Shown one piece after another: positions 1-6,798 of a stretch of DNA of 11,120 nucleotides. A model generated the notes under the pieces. That model made no database searches. It was not told where the DNA came from and saw nothing but the letters and a program-made list of their open reading frames with translations. This DNA is from Streptomyces roseochromogenus subsp. oscitans DS 12.976 (GTDB lineage Bacteria; Actinomycetota; Actinomycetes; Streptomycetales; Streptomycetaceae), in contig NZ_CM002285.1 of assembly GCF_000497445.1 (NCBI RefSeq), positions 3,082,851 to 3,093,970 of the forward strand, read 5' to 3'. Position 1 is the stretch's first letter; each line of letters begins with the position of its first letter. The translations under genes and the position numbers were made by a program.

Positions 1-1353
1 GAGTGGGCGGCGGCGGACCCTGGCGCGGCCTGGCTGCGCGCCTCCGGGGCGCGCGCGCTGCTGGCGGTGCCGCTGCTCGTCCAGGGCAGCACGCTCGGCG
101 TGGCGCTCTTCGGCCGGCGCCCAGGGCGGGGGCCGTTCGGCCCGGAGGAGCTGCGGCTGGCGCAGGAGTTCACAGCCAGGGCGGCCGCCGGCATCCGGCA
201 GGCCCGGTCCTACACACGCGCCCGCACCACCACCATGGCGCTGCAGCACAGCCTGCTCCCGCACACGCTGCCCGAGCAGGCGGCCCTGGAGATCGCCACC
301 CGCTATCTGCCCGCCGCGACCCGGGCCGGGGTGGGCGGCGACTGGTTCGACGTGATCCCGCTGTCCGGGGCGCGGGTGGCACTCGTCGTGGGCGATGTGG
401 TGGGCCACGGCATCCGCGCCTCGGCCACCATGGGCCGGCTGCGCACCGCCGTACGCACCCTCGCCGATGTCGATCTGCCGGCCGACGAACTCCTCACGCA
501 CCTCGACGACCTGGTCCTCCGGCTCGCCGCCGACGAGGGCAGCGCGGACCCGGCCGCCGAGACCGCCGGCGGCATCGGCACCACCTGTCTGTACGCGGTC
601 TACGACCCGGTCTCGCGCCGCTGCACCCTGGCCCGGGCCGGGCATCCGCCGCCCGCCGTGGTCAGCCCGGACGGCGCCGTGCGCTTCCTGGACGTGCCCG
701 CGGGGCCGCCGCTCGGGCTCGGCGGGCTGCCGTTCGAGGCCATCGAGACCGATCTGCCCGAGGGCAGCCTGCTCGTGCTCTACACCAACGGGCTGTTCGA
801 GGCCCGCGAGCACGACATCGACGAGGCGCTGGACAAGATGTTCGCCGCGCTCGGCCGGCCCGCGAAGTCGCTGGACGCGCTCTGCGACCATGTGCTCACC
901 GCGCTGCTGAGCCACCGCCCGGACGACGACATCGCCCTGCTCGTCGCCCGCACCCGGGTCCTGCACGAGGACCGGGTCGCCGCCTGGGAGCTGCGGAACG
1001 ACCCCACGGACGTCTCCCGCGCCCGCCACCTGGTCCACGACCAGCTGACCACGTGGGACCTGGAGGAAGCCGCCTTCCCCACCGAGCTGATGGTCAGCGA
1101 GCTGGTCACCAACGCCATGCGCTACGGCCGCCCGCCCATCCAGCTCCGGCTGATCCACCGGGACGCGACCCTGATCTGCGAGGTGTACGACTCCAGCGGC
1201 ACCACCCCGCACATGCGGCGCGCCCGTATCTTCGACGAGGGCGGCCGGGGCCTGCTGCTGGTCGCCCAGCTGGCCGACCGCTGGGGCACCCGGCACGACC
1301 GGGTCGGCAAGACGGTGTGGGCGGAGCAGTCGCTCTCCGGGGCGTCCGGGTGA
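1..1353 (+). CDS. SpoIIE/PP2C-type phosphatase with C-terminal HATPase domain (5' truncated)
   Basis: The frame is open from base 1, so the start lies outside the window; 450 residues are visible. Residues about 1-75 look like the end of a GAF sensor domain. Residues about 80-320 are a SpoIIE-type PP2C phosphatase core: the LQHSLLP entry motif, GGDWFD (113-118), VGDVVGHG (131-138), RAGHPPP and a late PDDDIALL (307-314). Residues about 330-448 are a GHKL/HATPase domain of the anti-sigma-factor type with N-box ELVTNAMRYG and GGRGLLLV. In this family the phosphatase acts on a phosphorylated anti-sigma-factor antagonist while the ATPase half resembles RsbW-like kinases, so the protein probably belongs to a partner-switching circuit. 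No membrane segment is visible in this part. Residue 263 is odd: the usual LYTDG motif reads LYTNG, replacing an Asp expected to bind metal. The stop faces the next gene's stop with a one-base gap. The family is secure; substrate and activity are not. Confidence 0.93.
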   Translation, partial: EWAAADPGAAWLRASGARALLAVPLLVQGSTLGVALFGRRPGRGPFGPEELRLAQEFTARAAAGIRQARSYTRARTTTMALQHSLLPHTLPEQAALEIATRYLPAATRAGVGGDWFDVIPLSGARVALVVGDVVGHGIRASATMGRLRTAVRTLADVDLPADELLTHLDDLVLRLAADEGSADPAAETAGGIGTTCLYAVYDPVSRRCTLARAGHPPPAVVSPDGAVRFLDVPAGPPLGLGGLPFEAIETDLPEGSLLVLYTNGLFEAREHDIDEALDKMFAALGRPAKSLDALCDHVLTALLSHRPDDDIALLVARTRVLHEDRVAAWELRNDPTDVSRARHLVHDQLTTWDLEEAAFPTELMVSELVTNAMRYGRPPIQLRLIHRDATLICEVYDSSGTTPHMRRARIFDEGGRGLLLVAQLADRWGTRHDRVGKTVWAEQSLSGASG

Positions 1354-1354
1354 G

Positions 1355-1867
1355 TCAGCCACTGCCGCCGTTGCCCCCACGGCCACCCTGACCGCTGGTC
1401 TCGCAGCCGACACCGAGGCAGATCCCGCCGTTGCCGCCCCGACCGCCGTTGCCGCCGTCGCCCGTGCCCGCCGCGTCGCCGCCGTTCCCGCCGGCGCCGC
1501 CGTTGACGCTGCCCGAGCAGACGCCGACGCAGATTCCGCCGTTGCCGCCCCTGGTGCCGTCCTGCCCCGATGCGCCGTCGGTGCCGGCGCCGCCGTTGGC
1601 GCTGCCGTTGCAGAGCCCGGCGCAGATGCCGCCGTCGTGTCCGCTGGTGCCGTTGACGGTGCCGTCGCAGTTGCCCGCGCAGATCGAGTCGCCGACGCGG
1701 ACGCTGCCGTTGCCCAGCTGGACGCTGCTGAGGCGGGGAGGGCCGCTGCCCGAGCCGCTGCCGGCGGGGCCGGTGTCGGCCATCGCGGCCGGTGCCATCG
1801 CGCCCCCGGCGATCACGAAGGTGGAGACCGCGAGCCCGAGACCGAATTTCCAGGAGTGCCTGCGCAT
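1355..1867 (-). CDS. Secreted Gly-rich protein with four cysteine pairs
   Basis: This is a 170-residue protein of no family I recognise. The start is ATG 1867, preceded by GAGAAGG at eight bases; a GTG at 1894 lies further upstream in frame but would include the ribosome binding site in the coding region. Residues 1-30 form a Sec signal peptide (MRRHSWKF, hydrophobic stretch, cleavage likely after AMA). The mature chain is about half Gly with Asn, Ser, Asp and Ala, and carries four copies of an I-C-x-G-x-C unit with cysteines at 63/67, 82/86, 113/117 and 150/155. The first three are CX3C and each is followed by a G-x-x-N-G turn; the last is CX4C. The regular pairing suggests disulfides or metal binding in an extracellular protein. 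It lies 43 bp after the collagen-like lipoprotein gene on the same strand and may share its transcript. The opposite-strand frame is Pro/Ala-rich shadow coding. Function unknown; a surface or matrix component is an inference. Confidence 0.8.
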   Translation of the reverse strand: MRRHSWKFGLGLAVSTFVIAGGAMAPAAMADTGPAGSGSGSGPPRLSSVQLGNGSVRVGDSICAGNCDGTVNGTSGHDGGICAGLCNGSANGGAGTDGASGQDGTRGGNGGICVGVCSGSVNGGAGGNGGDAAGTGDGGNGGRGGNGGICLGVGCETSGQGGRGGNGGSG

Positions 1868-1875
1868 GGGATTTA

Positions 1876-1882
1876 CCTTCTC
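1876..1882 (-). promoter_or_regulatory. Ribosome binding site deciding the start of the Cys-pair protein
   Basis: On the minus strand GAGAAGG stands eight bases before ATG 1867. It favours that ATG over the in-frame GTG at 1894, which has no comparable site. Confidence 0.7.
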
Positions 1883-1885
1883 TGA

Positions 1886-1925
1886 ATTTCTCACGGAGAT
1901 TCCGGACTTCTCACTGAGATTCCGG
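1886..1925 (-). repeat. Tandem 20-bp direct repeat across a stop codon
   Basis: Two adjacent 20-base units (1925-1906 and 1905-1886 on the minus strand) begin CCGGAATCTC and match at 18 of 20 positions. The first copy encodes the last codons and stop of the collagen-like lipoprotein; the second lies wholly in the spacer before the next gene. It looks like a local duplication that lengthened the intergenic spacer; no binding function is evident. Confidence 0.75.
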
Positions 1926-2354
1926 CTGCAGAAATGCGAGCCAGTCGCCGTTCAGGAGCTGACGCTCCCAGTTGCTGATTTCCTGCTCCGAGATCTTGTA
2001 CTTCTTGGCCGCGTCGGCCTGGGTGACCCGGCCCGTCAGCACGGTCAGCGCGATCCGCGCCTTGTCCAGCTGGGAGAGGTCCGACTTCGATTTGTCGGGC
2101 AGGTCCTGCAGGCCGTTGAACACGGAGCAGCCCGGCTTGCCGGGCTGGCCGGGCTCACCCGGCTGTCCGGGCGCGCCGCCCTTGCCGCCTTCGCCGCCTT
2201 CGCCGCAGTGCGACGACTGCTGCGCCAGAGCCGAGTAGCCGGTGGCGGCCGGGGCCGCGTGGGTGACTGCCTGGGCGCCGCACGCGGTGACGGTGACGAG
2301 AGCCGCGGAGGCCGCCGCGAGGAGGAAGGGACGCTGCCAGAGGTGTGTGGACAT
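1911..2354 (-). CDS. Collagen-like lipoprotein with transposase-like helix-turn-helix C-terminus
   Basis: This 147-residue protein starts at ATG 2354, with GGAG six bases upstream. Residues 1-24 are a lipoprotein signal peptide ending in the lipobox V-T-A-C, so Cys25 would be lipidated and the protein anchored on the outer face of the membrane. Residues 51-75 are eight uninterrupted Gly-X-Y triplets, the last five with Pro in the third position and charged or Gln residues in the second, bounded exactly by Cys50 and Cys76. Residues about 97-135 are predicted helical and resemble the helix-turn-helix of IS3-type transposase OrfA proteins (TGRVTQADAAKKY, then KISEQEISNWERQLL). A DNA-binding fold on an exported lipoprotein is hard to reconcile; it may be a domain reused for protein contacts. 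The gene follows a terminator-like hairpin, so it probably has its own promoter, and it is followed closely by the Cys-pair protein. I cannot assign a function. Confidence 0.82.
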   Translation of the reverse strand: MSTHLWQRPFLLAAASAALVTVTACGAQAVTHAAPAATGYSALAQQSSHCGEGGEGGKGGAPGQPGEPGQPGKPGCSVFNGLQDLPDKSKSDLSQLDKARIALTVLTGRVTQADAAKKYKISEQEISNWERQLLNGDWLAFLQPESQ

Positions 2355-2434: not shown

Positions 2435-2461
2435 GGGTGGAGGCCTGGGCGGCCTCCACCC
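2435..2461 (-). terminator. Hairpin after the periodic Gly-rich gene
   Basis: Perfect 11-bp arms (GGGTGGAGGCC and GGCCTCCACCC on the plus strand) surround a five-base loop. It lies 37 bases past the stop at 2499. No T-run follows, as is usual for Streptomyces terminators. It separates this gene from the two further downstream. Confidence 0.7.
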
Positions 2462-2498: not shown

Positions 2499-3095
2499 TC
2501 AGAAGAGGCTGATGCCACCGGCACCACCGGACCCGCCGGCGCCGCCGAAGAGGCCGCCGAAGCCGCCCTTTCCGCCCTTGCCGCCGTTGCCGCCCTGGAA
2601 GATGCTGTTGCCGCCCTTCCCGCCGTTGCCGCCCTGGCCACCGACGAGGACGCCGTCGCCGCCGCCACCGCCGGAGCCGCCGCCACCGCCGGAGAAGATG
2701 CCGAAGCCACCGGCACCGCCGTCGCCGCCCTTACCGCCGATGACGCCTTCACCGCCGCCACCACCGCCACCGCCGCCACCACCGGCCAGGACCCCGTCGC
2801 CGCCCTTACCGCCGGCGCCGCCGTCACCACCGGTGCCGAGGACGCTGCCGCCACCGGATCCACCGGCGCCACCGCCGCCGCCGACCAGCCCGGAGCCGCC
2901 GTCACCACCGGCGCCACCGGCTCCGCCGCCATGGACGAAGGCCACGGTCGACGTGGGCATCGGGGCCGCCATCGCGGCGGACACGGGGAGGAGGACACCT
3001 CCGGTGACCAGCGCGGCGGAGGCGACGACGGTCGCCAGCCGGAGACCTCGGCGCTTCGGACGGATTTCGTCGTGGGTCTGCACATTACGAGTCAT
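2499..3095 (-). CDS. Secreted Gly-rich protein with 16-residue periodic hydrophobic pairs
   Basis: This 198-residue protein matches no family I can name. Start ATG 3095 has GGGAG seven bases upstream; longer in-frame readings run through this site. Residues 1-43 are a signal peptide: an unusually long basic N-region (EIRPKRRGLR), a hydrophobic core, and cleavage likely after AMA. The rest is dominated by GGxGGx sequence. Hydrophobic pairs interrupt the Gly tracts at 70/71, 85/86, 102/103, 118/119, 133/134, 149/150, 165/166, 182/183 and the C-terminal 197/198 (LV, VL, VL, VI, IF, VL, IF, LF, LF), spaced 15-17 residues. There is no cysteine. The composition recalls mycobacterial PGRS tracts, but there is no PE domain, so kinship is not implied. 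It sits 202 bp downstream of a Ser/Thr kinase gene and ends at a hairpin. The plus-strand Pro-rich reading is its shadow. A structural surface role is inference only. Confidence 0.82.
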   Translation of the reverse strand: MTRNVQTHDEIRPKRRGLRLATVVASAALVTGGVLLPVSAAMAAPMPTSTVAFVHGGGAGGAGGDGGSGLVGGGGGAGGSGGGSVLGTGGDGGAGGKGGDGVLAGGGGGGGGGGGEGVIGGKGGDGGAGGFGIFSGGGGGSGGGGGDGVLVGGQGGNGGKGGNSIFQGGNGGKGGKGGFGGLFGGAGGSGGAGGISLF

Positions 3096-3297: not shown

Positions 3298-4248
3298 TCA
3301 GATGAGGAACGGCCGCGCCCAGGAAGGCGGCTCAGGCGGCGGAACCCGGTCCACCGCGGTCGGCGTACGGCGGCGGGGGACGGGCTCGGCGACCGCGTCG
3401 CGCAGGGCCGCGACGAACTCCAGACAGGAGTCGTAGCGGTCGTCCGGGGCCTTCGCCAGGGCACGCCGGAGAACCGCGTCGGCGGCCGCCGGGATGTCCG
3501 GCCGCTCCTCGCTGAGGGCGGGCGGCGGGTCGTACTGGTGGGCCCAGAGCAGTTCGAGCTGGTCCTCCCGCCGGAAGGGCGGGGCACCCGTGAGCATCTC
3601 GTGCACGACGCAGGCCAGGCTGTACAGATCGGCCCGGCCGTCCACCGGGCGCCCGGCGATCCGCTCGGGCGCCACATAGTCGAGGGTGCCGACGAACTCG
3701 CCCGCGGTGGTGAACCCGGTGAGCGACAGCGACTTCTTCGCCAGCCCGAAGTCGGTGAGATAGACGTGCTCGGGGTGGTCGCTGTCGACGACCTTGGCGA
3801 CCAGGACGTTGCCGGGTTTGACGTCCCGGTGCACCAGCTCGCGCGCGTGGGCCGCGTCCAGGGCGGAGGCCAGCTGGGCCGCCATGCGCAGCGCGACCGC
3901 CACCGGCAGCCGGCCCTCCTGGTCGATCAGGGCGCGCAGATCCTGCCCGGAGACGTAGCACATGGCGATGTAGAGGAGCCCGTCGAACTCGCCGGCCTCG
4001 AAGACGGGGACGATGTTGGGATGGTCGATGGCGGCCGCCACCCGTGACTCCTGGGTGAAACGACGACGGAAGGCGTCGTTGCGGGTGTACTGCGGGGCGA
4101 GCAGCTTGAGCGCGACCGTCCGGCCGAGGCGCAGATCCTTGGCCTGGTAGACGACGGCCATGCCACCTCGGCCGAGTTCGCGTTCCACCCGGTAGCCCGC
4201 GATCTCGGCCCCGATCAGGCCGGAGGGGCTCTTGGGGGGCCAACTCAC
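3298..4248 (-). CDS. Soluble Hanks-type Ser/Thr protein kinase
   Basis: This 316-residue eukaryotic-type kinase carries every core motif: Gly-rich loop GRGGMA (26-31), VALK with Lys48, helix-C Glu67, HRDVKPGN (140-147) with catalytic Asp142, DFG (166-168) with Asp166, and APE (193-195). The activation segment is rich in Ser/Thr (173-181), the usual autophosphorylation sites. The domain fills residues about 17-285. After it there is only a short Pro/Arg tail, with no membrane helix and no PASTA or other sensor domain, so the enzyme is probably cytoplasmic and short for its family. The start is GTG 4248; no good Shine-Dalgarno is present and a -10-like hexamer lies six bases upstream, suggesting leaderless translation. 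Its neighbours are Lon upstream, behind a strong terminator, and the Gly-rich protein genes downstream on the same strand. Targets are unknown; control of the neighbouring export genes is only a guess. Confidence 0.95.
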   Translation of the reverse strand: MSWPPKSPSGLIGAEIAGYRVERELGRGGMAVVYQAKDLRLGRTVALKLLAPQYTRNDAFRRRFTQESRVAAAIDHPNIVPVFEAGEFDGLLYIAMCYVSGQDLRALIDQEGRLPVAVALRMAAQLASALDAAHARELVHRDVKPGNVLVAKVVDSDHPEHVYLTDFGLAKKSLSLTGFTTAGEFVGTLDYVAPERIAGRPVDGRADLYSLACVVHEMLTGAPPFRREDQLELLWAHQYDPPPALSEERPDIPAAADAVLRRALAKAPDDRYDSCLEFVAALRDAVAEPVPRRRTPTAVDRVPPPEPPSWARPFLI

Positions 4249-4356: not shown

Positions 4357-6777
4357 TCACGCCGCGACCGGAATCTCAGGCGCCGCCCCGTTCGCCGCGG
4401 GGGTGAGCGCCAGCTCCAGGACCTGGCGGACGTCGGTCACGGTGTGGACGTCGAGCTTGTCCAGCACCTCGGCCGGGACGTCGTCCAGGTCGGGTTCGTT
4501 ACGCTTGGGGATGATCACGGTGGTCACCCCGGCGCGCTGGGCGGCGAGCAGCTTCTGCTTCACGCCGCCGATGGGCAGCACCCGGCCGGTCAGCGAGACC
4601 TCGCCGGTCATCGCCACATCCGTGCGCACCAGACGCCCGGAGAGCAGCGACGCGAGCGCCGTGGTCATCGTGATGCCGGCGCTGGGGCCGTCCTTCGGGA
4701 CCGCGCCCGCCGGGAAGTGGATGTGCACGCCCCGGTCCCTCAAGTCGCCCACCGGCAGCTCCAGTTCGGCGCCGTGGCTGCGCAGGAAGCTCAGCGCGAT
4801 CTGCGCCGACTCCTTCATCACGTCACCGAGCTGACCGGTGAGGGTCAGACCGGCCGCGCCCGTCTCCGGGTCGGCGAGGGACGCCTCGACGAAGAGGACG
4901 TCGCCGCCGGCTCCGGTGACCGCGAGACCGGTCGCCACGCCCGGCACCGACGTACGGCGCTCGGCCGGGTCCTGGGCGGACTCGGGCACGTGGTGCGGGC
5001 GCCCGATCAGACCGCGCAGGTCCGTGTCCCGGACGGTGAACGGCAGCTCGCGCTCGCCGAGTTCGTGCTGGGCCGCGACCTTGCGGAGCAGGCGTGCGAT
5101 GGACCGCTCCAGGGTGCGCACGCCCGCCTCGCGGGTGTACTCGCCGGCGAGCTTGCGCAGCGCGCCCTCGTCGATCGTGACCTCGTCCTTGCCGAGTCCG
5201 GCCCGCTCCAGCTGACGCGGGAGCAGGTGGTCGCGGGCGATGACGACCTTCTCGTCCTCGGTGTAGCCGTCGAGGCGGACGATCTCCATCCGGTCGGCGA
5301 GCGCCTCCGGGATGGCCTCCAGGACGTTGGCGGTGGCCAGGAAGACCACGTCCGACAGGTCGAGTTCGACCTCCAGGTAGTGGTCCCGGAAGGTGTGGTT
5401 CTGCGCCGGGTCCAGGACTTCGAGCAGGGCCGCGGCCGGGTCGCCGCGGTAGTCCGAGCCCACCTTGTCGATCTCGTCCAGCAGGACCACCGGGTTCATG
5501 GATCCGGCCTCCTTGACGGCCCGCACGATCCGGCCGGGCAGCGCACCGACGTACGTACGGCGGTGGCCGCGGATCTCGGCCTCGTCCCGGACGCCGCCGA
5601 GGGCGACGCGGACGAACTTGCGGCCCATCGCGTGCGCGACGGACTCGCCGAGCGACGTCTTGCCGACGCCCGGCGGCCCGACTAGGGCCAGTACGGCGCC
5701 GCCGCGCCGGCCGCCGATGACGCCGAGGCCACGGTCGCTGCGGCGCTTGCGCACCGCGAGGTACTCGGTGATGCGCGCCTTCACGTCCTCCAGGCCGGCG
5801 TGCTCGGCGTCCAGGATCGCCTTGGCGCCCTGGATGTCGTACACATCCTCCGTCCGTTCCTTCCACGGCATTTCGAGGACGGTGTCCAGCCAGGTGCGGA
5901 TCCAGGAGCCCTCCGGGGACTGGTCGCTGGACCGCTCCAGCTTGTCGACCTCCTTGAGCGCGGCCTCGCGGACCTTCTCCGGCAGGTCGGCGGCCTCCAC
6001 GCGGGCGCGGTAGTCGTCGGACTCCTCGCCGTCCTGCTCGCCGTTCAGCTCGCGCAGCTCCTTGCGGACGGCCTCCAGCTGGCGGCGGAGCAGGAACTCG
6101 CGCTGCTGCTTGTCGACGCCCTCCTGGACGTCCTTGGCGATGGAGTCGGCCACGTCCTGCTCGGCGAGGTGCTCGCGCAGCTGCCGCGTGGCGAGCTTCA
6201 GCCGGGCCACCGGGTCGGCGGTCTCCAGCAGCTCGACCTTCTGTTCGGTGGTGAGGAACGGCGAGTAGCCGGAGTTGTCGGCGAGCGCGGAAACGCCTTC
6301 GATGGCCTGGACCCGGTCGACGACCTGCCAGGCGCCGCGCTTCTTCAGCCAGGTGGTGGCGAGCGCCTTGTACTCCTTGACCAGGTCCGCGACCTGACCC
6401 GGCAGCGGGTCCGGCACGCTCTCGTCGATACGCGCGCCCTCGACCCACAGGGCGGCGCCGGGACCGGTGGTGCCGGCGCCGATCCGCACGCGGCTCCGGC
6501 CGCGGATCAGAGCCCCCGGGTCACCGTCGGCCAGCCGGCCGACCTGCTCGACCGTGCCCAGCACACCGGTCTTCGCGTACGTGCCGTCGACGCGTGGCAC
6601 CAGCAGCACCCTGGGCTTGCCCGGCTCCGACCGGGCGGCGGCCTGTGCGGCCTCCACCGCGGCCCGTACGTCGGCGTCGCTCAGGTCCAGCGGAACCACC
6701 ATGCCGGGCAGCACGACCTCGTCGTCGAGCGGCAGCACGGGCAGTACGAGCGTGAACGCCGTGGACTCAGCAGCCAT
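4357..6777 (-). CDS. lon: ATP-dependent Lon protease (LonA type)
   Basis: This is an 806-residue, full-length LonA, the cytoplasmic hexameric protease that degrades damaged and some regulatory proteins. Domains in order are: the N-terminal substrate-binding domain (about 5-200), a coiled-coil linker (about 200-300), and the AAA+ module with Walker A GPPGVGKT (367-374) and Walker B LLDEID (432-437). The C-terminal protease domain has a Ser-Lys dyad: Ser699 in PKDGPSAG and Lys742 in GGVKQKL. The C-terminal tail is a short Ala/Pro extension. The start is ATG 6777, which has AAGGGG five bases upstream; an in-frame ATG at 6798 adjoins the operator and would add only seven residues. A HAIR-type inverted repeat lies 21 bp upstream, so repression by HspR and heat-shock induction are expected, as reported for lon in Streptomyces lividans. 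A strong hairpin follows the gene, which therefore looks monocistronic. No missing catalytic residue. Confidence 0.98.
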   Translation of the reverse strand: MAAESTAFTLVLPVLPLDDEVVLPGMVVPLDLSDADVRAAVEAAQAAARSEPGKPRVLLVPRVDGTYAKTGVLGTVEQVGRLADGDPGALIRGRSRVRIGAGTTGPGAALWVEGARIDESVPDPLPGQVADLVKEYKALATTWLKKRGAWQVVDRVQAIEGVSALADNSGYSPFLTTEQKVELLETADPVARLKLATRQLREHLAEQDVADSIAKDVQEGVDKQQREFLLRRQLEAVRKELRELNGEQDGEESDDYRARVEAADLPEKVREAALKEVDKLERSSDQSPEGSWIRTWLDTVLEMPWKERTEDVYDIQGAKAILDAEHAGLEDVKARITEYLAVRKRRSDRGLGVIGGRRGGAVLALVGPPGVGKTSLGESVAHAMGRKFVRVALGGVRDEAEIRGHRRTYVGALPGRIVRAVKEAGSMNPVVLLDEIDKVGSDYRGDPAAALLEVLDPAQNHTFRDHYLEVELDLSDVVFLATANVLEAIPEALADRMEIVRLDGYTEDEKVVIARDHLLPRQLERAGLGKDEVTIDEGALRKLAGEYTREAGVRTLERSIARLLRKVAAQHELGERELPFTVRDTDLRGLIGRPHHVPESAQDPAERRTSVPGVATGLAVTGAGGDVLFVEASLADPETGAAGLTLTGQLGDVMKESAQIALSFLRSHGAELELPVGDLRDRGVHIHFPAGAVPKDGPSAGITMTTALASLLSGRLVRTDVAMTGEVSLTGRVLPIGGVKQKLLAAQRAGVTTVIIPKRNEPDLDDVPAEVLDKLDVHTVTDVRQVLELALTPAANGAAPEIPVAA

Positions 6778-6780
6778 GAT

Positions 6781-6788
6781 CTCCCCTT
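6781..6788 (-). promoter_or_regulatory. Ribosome binding site deciding the lon start
   Basis: AAGGGGAG on the minus strand precedes ATG 6777 by a few bases. It supports this start over the ATG at 6798, which abuts the operator and has no such site. Confidence 0.75.
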
Positions 6789-6798
6789 CGGCAGTCAA

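Follow-up and report, generated by a model that had tools for sequence, protein, structure and literature searches.

What is a helix-turn-helix (HTH) domain, of the kind usually taken as a marker of gene regulators or transposases, doing at the end of an exported, collagen-like protein? The question is raised by a gene, here named CLP-HTH, in an 11,120-nucleotide stretch of the chromosome of Streptomyces roseochromogenus subsp. oscitans DS 12.976 (genome 9.78 Mb; contig NZ_CM002285.1, positions 3,082,851 to 3,093,970 of the forward strand), referred to below as the window. Our answer, to which we give a slightly better than even chance, is that a Gly-X-Y rod bracketed by two cysteines is carried out of the cell and multimerises or docks by polyproline-II (PPII) packing, and that the HTH fold has been exapted as an interaction head for partners other than DNA, within a cassette of glycine-rich proteins. 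The protein comprises a signal (residues 1-29), an unconserved linker (30-49), Cys50, the triplets with a closing Gly75, Cys76, a conserved LPDK motif (85-88) and the HTH domain (93-142). In window coordinates, the gene and its three principal parts are:

1911..2354, minus strand: CLP-HTH, an exported collagen-like protein with a C-terminal HTH fold; open reading frame (ORF) of 147 amino acids with an ATG start
2268..2354, minus strand: export signal, residues 1-29, with a lipobox-like VTAC25 followed by A/G-A-Q-A (signal peptidase I-like); ratio of nonsynonymous to synonymous substitution (dN/dS) 0.19
2127..2207, minus strand: Cys50-(Gly-X-Y)8-Gly75-Cys76, collagen-like or PPII-like, supported by shuffles, cysteine spacing and a dN/dS of 0.26
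1929..2078, minus strand: tri-helical HTH domain, residues 93-142, with an acidic recognition helix (123-134) and near-invariant W129, G136, D137 and W138

Export of CLP-HTH is well supported by the conservation of its signal sequence across the family. Residues 1-25 of the window protein, ending in VTA-C25, fit both the PS51257-type and the strict lipobox patterns (with Leu, Val, Ile or Ala at -3, a small residue at -1 and Cys at +1), and a first-pass annotation, made from the DNA alone, had read them as a lipoprotein signal. The conserved export signal stands, and lipidation is uncertain. We compared 88 distinct members, drawn from aligned proteins and from loci among those listed in genome scans, without the partial P0063 and without L014; P0064-P0069 lie outside this set. 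The strict lipobox is fitted by 11 of the 88, and the Cys, present in 83, is missing in P0049, P0051, P0054, L011 and L013. Position -3 is Gly in 68 of the 83 Cys-bearing members, against none of 38 substrate-binding-type proteins from the same genome (a set of 44, six of which have no lipobox-like Cys, with a few of the remaining 38 doubtful). The lipoprotein reading is thus weakened both by the Gly at -3 in most members and by the five that have no Cys. Residues +1 to +4 are Ala/Gly-Ala-Gln-Ala with few exceptions, where the comparison set has mostly Gly or Ser, and an [AVSG]-[QHDP]-A site is present in 84/88 members; the near-invariant Ala-Gln-Ala would suit an ordinary signal peptidase. 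Lipidation is possible in the window's own clade and is seemingly not the rule of the family. No LPXTG anchor was seen by eye in the window protein. The earlier placement on an outer membrane face does not apply, as Streptomyces has no outer membrane.

The eight Gly-X-Y triplets of the first-pass annotation are borne out. Residues 51-75 carry nine in-phase glycines, making eight full triplets without interruption, an arrangement that 100,000 shuffled versions of the protein never reached, the maximum among them being seven. The Pfam Collagen model (PF01391) scores 17.3 bits on these residues, below its cut-off of 27.2. Runs of 5 to 14 triplets are found in all 88 members compared, with Glu, Lys, Gln or Arg predominating at X and Gly or Pro at Y. 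The spacing of the two cysteines is 3n+1 in 81/88 (lengths 19, 25, 28, 31, 34, 37 and 40), so that changes in length mostly preserve the triplet phase; the seven off-phase spacings are 29, 30, 33, 35 (two), 60 and 96. The first half of the window's run is of the form GGX, as in GRP1, the product of a neighbouring gene, and the second half is GXP. Two loci are rearranged in this part of the protein, L014 (5538-6195) by a long Lys/Glu/Asp/Ser-rich insertion before the HTH domain and L064 (5714-6358) by a long Gly-rich insertion between the cysteines; the HTH domain is retained in both. Collagen-like sequences are annotated in Streptomyces, according to PMC4448552.

The C-terminal domain is an HTH fold, as the annotation had proposed for residues 97-135 or thereabouts. 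The AlphaFold model is tri-helical, with helices at residues 95-106, 112-119, 123-134 and 138-142; the mean predicted local distance difference test score (pLDDT) per ten residues is 91-95 over residues 91-130, 84 over 131-140 and 66 over 141-147. Pfam DUF1153 (PF06627) matches residues 82-133 at 25.1 bits, above its cut-off of 23.5, and is matched at E<=1e-3 in 43 of 64 aligned members; in the window's own genome CLP-HTH is its one match. HTH_28 scores 20.9 bits on residues 98-135 (cut-off 25), and the NCBIfam equivalog for SciP, an inhibitor of CtrA, 22.3 bits (cut-off 100). L85, P86, D97, I101, K118 and Y119 are invariant. The head belongs to the HTH_28/OrfA-like/DUF1153 group. The narrower label of IS3 OrfA-like, also given earlier, holds as kinship of fold; the IS3 transposase equivalog scores 12.2 bits against a cut-off of 160, HTH_Tnp_1 (PF01527) gives no listed match to the window protein at E<=1 and matches one of the 64 members at 1e-3, and the identified neighbours of stand-alone relatives, described below, are genes of other kinds. 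Foldseek returned no match to CLP-HTH with E <0.001.

The recognition helix sets the family apart from the control HTH strings examined. Position 4 of helix 3 is Glu or Asp in 57/89 family strings and position 6 is acidic in 75/89, and every one of the 89 has an acid at one or the other, compared with 1 of 23 control HTH strings from the same order; the mean net charge of helix 3 is -1.17 in the family and +1.35 in the controls. The family strings are 89 of 90 distinct ones (P0063 left out) and are related, hence non-independent. The controls come from 38 loci, nine of which gave no usable string and identical ones of which were merged; of the 23, at least three lie out of register and two resemble MerR proteins, without effect on the contrast. 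Helix 3 is also net positive in seven of eight outsider HTH proteins typed, the eighth, L042, being -3. We conclude with moderate confidence that the fold appears to be retained and its DNA surface lost, and DNA binding by the head is disfavoured by these sequences.

Rates of substitution, estimated by the Nei-Gojobori method, point to selection on the same parts. In nine separate close pairs, dN/dS is 0.19 for the signal, 0.94 for the linker, 0.26 for the cysteines and triplets, 0.30 for residues 77-92 and 0.42 for the HTH domain; the rearranged L014 and L064 and the duplicates L047, L051 and L056 were omitted. The HTH domain is thus constrained relative to the neutral linker, yet is the fastest-changing of the conserved parts. 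Pooled over 405/406 pairs from 29 sequences, the values are 0.43, 1.13, 0.27, 0.53 and 0.88 respectively. Signal, triplets and HTH domain are under purifying selection by these estimates, from which the linker is exempt. Of the uses that the annotation had offered for the HTH domain, the one with the best support is repurposing for interaction, as judged by its position behind the signal, its dN/dS beside that of the linker and its acidic recognition helix.

The family is restricted to Streptomyces among the genomes searched here. Of 375 candidates from a protein search, 63 are homologues with E<=1e-3, and a region-limited search gave seven family members among eight candidates and no outsiders. 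Across 295 Streptomyces genomes, 43 have a match at E<=1e-3. Twenty-three of these, with E<1e-28, were counted as the family, the match lying in one piece in 19 and in two in four (G213, G284, G033 and G224); the other 20 are partial and low-scoring. Among 394 genomes from across the class, three match at E<=1e-8, all in a single one of the 137 genera. Among 72,556 plasmid records there is no match spanning 80% of the query, and four Streptomyces replicons match residues 76-142. In two of the two-piece matches (G033:C24:178388-178933 and G224:C1:576915-577442) a TAG falls inside the second piece, marking either an insertion or a broken copy. Several members bear source names such as 'helix-turn-helix domain-containing protein' or 'transposase'.

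Close relatives of the head outside the family include stand-alone HTH proteins. A profile of the domain finds seven Streptomyces HTH ORFs at 23-42 bits, the other matches listed reaching at most 14 bits; this ranking is not independent, because five of the seven ORFs were found through the family's own profile and two through one of that group. A reverse search from one such ORF matches the window gene at E 4.6e-8. The sole non-family match among the best 16 of 710 candidates is P0070, named a transposase by its source, at E 4e-3. Small OrfA-like HTH proteins lie at L140 2245-2565 and L141 2136-2459, both of about 107 residues and on the minus strand, and also in L142 and L143. Their neighbours encode HopA1 (L140, L141), APH (L141), an M16 peptidase (L142, L143), a luciferase-like protein (L143) and a flavoprotein (L142, L143); one of nine neighbouring ORFs tested in the four regions has no Pfam match, and an ABC-transporter gene was recognised by eye in L140. 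These surroundings are reminiscent of class V lanthipeptide clusters.

Three candidate origins or identities were rejected. Proteins of the L038/L040/L043 type were considered as IS3 OrfA, captured directly from a transposon, and set aside on finding them flanked by the HopA1, APH, M16-peptidase, luciferase-like and flavoprotein genes, with the reservation that only ORFs passing a GC filter were inspected in L140-L143, so that a transposase gene there may have been missed. Nor do they correspond to LxmX of the class V lanthipeptide clusters, which is described otherwise: LxmX-type proteins are treated as kinase homologues in PMC12291118 and PMC9415263, and LxmX is counted within the lanthionine synthetase in PMC8068269. 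Lastly, an L040 query matched 78 bases past the stop of the window gene, which might have marked a read-through relic of the OrfA coiled coil; the match is probably due to chance, and by eye the post-stop frame has no sequence common to most of the 33 other loci.

Along the minus strand, lon is followed by a Ser/Thr kinase gene, GRP1, CLP-HTH and GRP2, and a gene for a SpoIIE-type phosphatase converges on them from the plus strand:

4357-6798, minus strand: lon (Lon_C, 6.9e-77)
3298..4248, minus strand: Ser/Thr protein kinase, a frequent neighbour (Pkinase, 3.5e-45)
2499..3095, minus strand: GRP1, a GGX-repeat protein with a signal-like N-terminus; start at 3095 likely from alignment, ORF extending to 3173
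2435..2461, minus strand: GC-rich hairpin between GRP1 and CLP-HTH, with an 11-bp stem and no U run (by eye)
1355..1894, minus strand: GRP2, a Gly/Cys-rich protein with a signal-like N-terminus and CxGxC repeats, the downstream neighbour of CLP-HTH
1..1353, plus strand: SpoIIE-type phosphatase with a HATPase domain, a frequent neighbour (SpoIIE, 6.1e-53; HATPase_c_2, 8e-13)

CLP-HTH is usually flanked by the two exported glycine-rich proteins, GRP1 and GRP2. In 30 loci, counted after removal of three duplicates and with weak matches from 40 bits upwards included, GRP2 lies downstream on the same strand in 25, a kinase is matched nearby at 40 bits or more in 19, and a SpoIIE-type phosphatase match lies within 6 kb in 21. 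CLP-HTH and GRP2 occur together in 20 of the 295 Streptomyces genomes, CLP-HTH only in three, GRP2 only in one and neither in 271. GRP2 probably starts, by eye, at the ATG at 1867 within its ORF; it is Gly-rich with repeated GGICxGxCxGSxNGG-like motifs containing Cys pairs, and matches nothing in Pfam or NCBIfam at E<=1. A hairpin like that of the window is seen by eye upstream of CLP-HTH in all 10 regions viewed of 34, five of which were folded, and is possibly an attenuator or processing site. GGAG begins 10 bases 5' of the CLP-HTH ATG. In the 160 bases 5' of the gene, eight of nine known sigma-factor or regulator motifs occur in none of 34 loci and the ninth in two, and there are no TTA codons in the four genes counted.

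GRP1 carries scores of invariant glycines, and its AlphaFold model is confident. The top matches by VIA-align, which was applied to Foldseek lists only (ten chains for GRP1), are the PPII bundles of springtail antifreeze proteins; the Foldseek matches themselves have a best E of 5.2e-3, none being below 0.001, with TM scores of 0.10 to 0.14 and a root-mean-square deviation of 14.5. With weak to moderate confidence, this model predicts GRP1 to be a PPII helix bundle.

The export-signal pattern, the triplet periodicity, the HTH fold, the conservation of these parts together, the selection on them and the gene cassette come directly from computation; from them we infer where CLP-HTH resides, how it assembles, what its disulfides and partner may be and what it does. 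CLP-HTH would be a secreted surface or matrix protein of Streptomyces, exported most likely via Sec. Signal peptidase I would cut after Ala-Gln-Ala, or, in the window's clade, Cys25 might be lipidated instead. The Cys-bracketed run would then form extended PPII chains that assemble in register, either as a short collagen-like trimer clamped by disulfides or by packing with other PPII chains, and the assembly would display several copies of the C-terminal fold. That fold, its core retained and its DNA-facing helix acidified, may serve as an extracellular head that binds protein or polymer, the likely partners being GRP1, the predicted PPII bundle, and the Gly/Cys-rich GRP2 of the same cassette. 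A bolder form of this reading, in which the cassette is a three-protein extracellular material held by PPII packing, with GRP1 as the bundle, CLP-HTH strands added to it or trimerised, Cys pairs as locks and the HTH domain as a non-DNA cross-linking head that possibly recognises GRP2, seems to us unlikely.

Several observations weigh against the reading of CLP-HTH as an exported rod with a non-DNA head. The pooled dN/dS of the HTH domain is 0.88, a value in which GC bias depresses synonymous change. In P0064 the signal and the HTH domain are present and the entire Gly-X-Y run is lost, so that the rod would be dispensable in some members, and a run of eight to eleven triplets lacking hydroxyproline may not be long enough to make a stable triple helix. 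Glu at helix-3 position 4 is shared by 2jrt and 2oa4, two DUF1153 proteins of solved structure, which leaves the position-6 acid alone to distinguish the family from them, and the domain is basic in some members, such as P0032 (net +5, isoelectric point 9.6). P0067, P0068 and P0069 are predicted HTH-only ORFs of 42-57 residues, either gene-calling fragments or real short forms.

The head might still bind nucleic acid and tether extracellular DNA to the cell surface or the glycine-rich matrix, multimerisation of the rod offsetting weak binding at single sites. In its favour are the HTH fold itself, with DNA-binding families among its relatives (SciP, of the DUF1153 family, acts on DNA or on CtrA), the basic domains of some members, and the position-4 Glu of solved relatives; we nevertheless hold such a tether unlikely, since the window's own domain is acidic (net -1, isoelectric point 5.2), all 89 family strings of helix 3 have an acid at position 4 or 6, the turn following helix 1 carries an acidic insertion of two residues in one clade, and the domain charge spans +5 to -6 among the 16 of 64 members listed (mean of the 64, -0.7). 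The annotation's suggestion of binding to extracellular DNA is accordingly weakened by the acidic helix, less so for the sharing of the Glu with 2jrt and 2oa4. A different alternative concerns the run, which may not be collagen-like at all: as one or two PPII strands it could fold back into a hairpin closed by a Cys50-Cys76 disulfide, or dock on the GRP1 bundle, as in springtail antifreeze proteins. The GGX first half, the PPII-type model of GRP1 and the Cys pair flanking a run of mostly conserved phase are all compatible with this, whereas the Pro-rich Gly-X-Pro half is collagen-like, as reflected in its Pfam Collagen score, and we regard this version as slightly less likely than the DNA tether.

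It is improbable that the HTH domain is now a passive globular cap, the decaying relic of a domain captured from a regulator or transposase. Its dN/dS is the highest of the conserved parts and the family is patchy (23/295 genomes), as such a relic would have it; on the other side stand the lower rate relative to the linker, the invariant and near-invariant residues, and the persistence of the domain in L064 and L014 despite their rearranged middles. Most improbable is that translation from an internal start yields a second form, HTH-only and cytoplasmic. GTG78 is in frame and is the window's sole ATG, GTG or TTG between the triplets and helix 1, and it has no Shine-Dalgarno-like 4-mer. In 26/34 loci a GTG or ATG lies at the start of helix 1, 10 or 11 codons past LPD, with a Shine-Dalgarno-like 4-mer in 5 of the 26, and the source prediction of the 57-residue P0067 begins near there. 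No such start is present in the window or in seven other loci, GTG often encodes Val in GC-rich DNA, and the family frequently has Val at this site. An internal start thus seems unlikely in the window and is unproven in other clades, so that this option, raised in the first-pass annotation, is disfavoured for the window protein and less clear for the family.

If the preferred reading holds, CLP-HTH may exemplify the recruitment of a DNA-binding fold to the outside of the cell. An HTH domain that stands behind an export signal, and on which selection acts in a structural context, urges caution in annotation from domains alone. The cassette pairs a predicted bacterial PPII-type protein with a cysteine-clamped collagen-like protein; were the three-protein form true, a regulator fold would have turned structural connector within a bacterial matrix. 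The assembly of glycine-rich bacterial surface proteins becomes testable in Streptomyces, a genus with good genetics.

Each part of CLP-HTH is of a known kind, and the combination of signal, Gly-X-Y run and HTH domain was not found in the literature searched, as judged partly by titles among the matches listed. SciP is a cytoplasmic regulator of CtrA in alphaproteobacteria. The DUF1153/SciP proteins (2jrt, 2oa4) have in common with CLP-HTH an LP motif at a variable distance before helix 1, the HTH helices, and in helix 3 a Glu at position 4 and a Trp at position 8; the CLP-HTH domain differs in standing behind an export signal and a Gly-X-Y run, and in having mostly Asp at position 6. The small HTH_28/IS3 OrfA-like proteins share its helix pattern, including W-x-x-Q-[FLY]-x-x-G, but are stand-alone ORFs with no export signal in the translations examined.

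For the run, two comparisons can be drawn. Among the polyglycine-II and PPII glycine-rich proteins, such as the PE_PGRS sandwich and springtail antifreeze proteins, GRP1 finds likeness in its GGX repeats and in the PPII bundles matched by its model, and the CLP-HTH triplets are likewise GGX in style; the PE domain of PE_PGRS is not seen here, and CLP-HTH alone has too few triplets for a bundle. With the bacterial collagen-like surface proteins Scl1 and Scl2, CLP-HTH has in common export, a Gly-X-Y repeat and one terminal globular domain. Scl1 and Scl2 have many tens of triplets and the CLP-HTH family five to fourteen; in this family, unlike Scl1 and Scl2, the run is bracketed by two cysteines and the head is an HTH fold.
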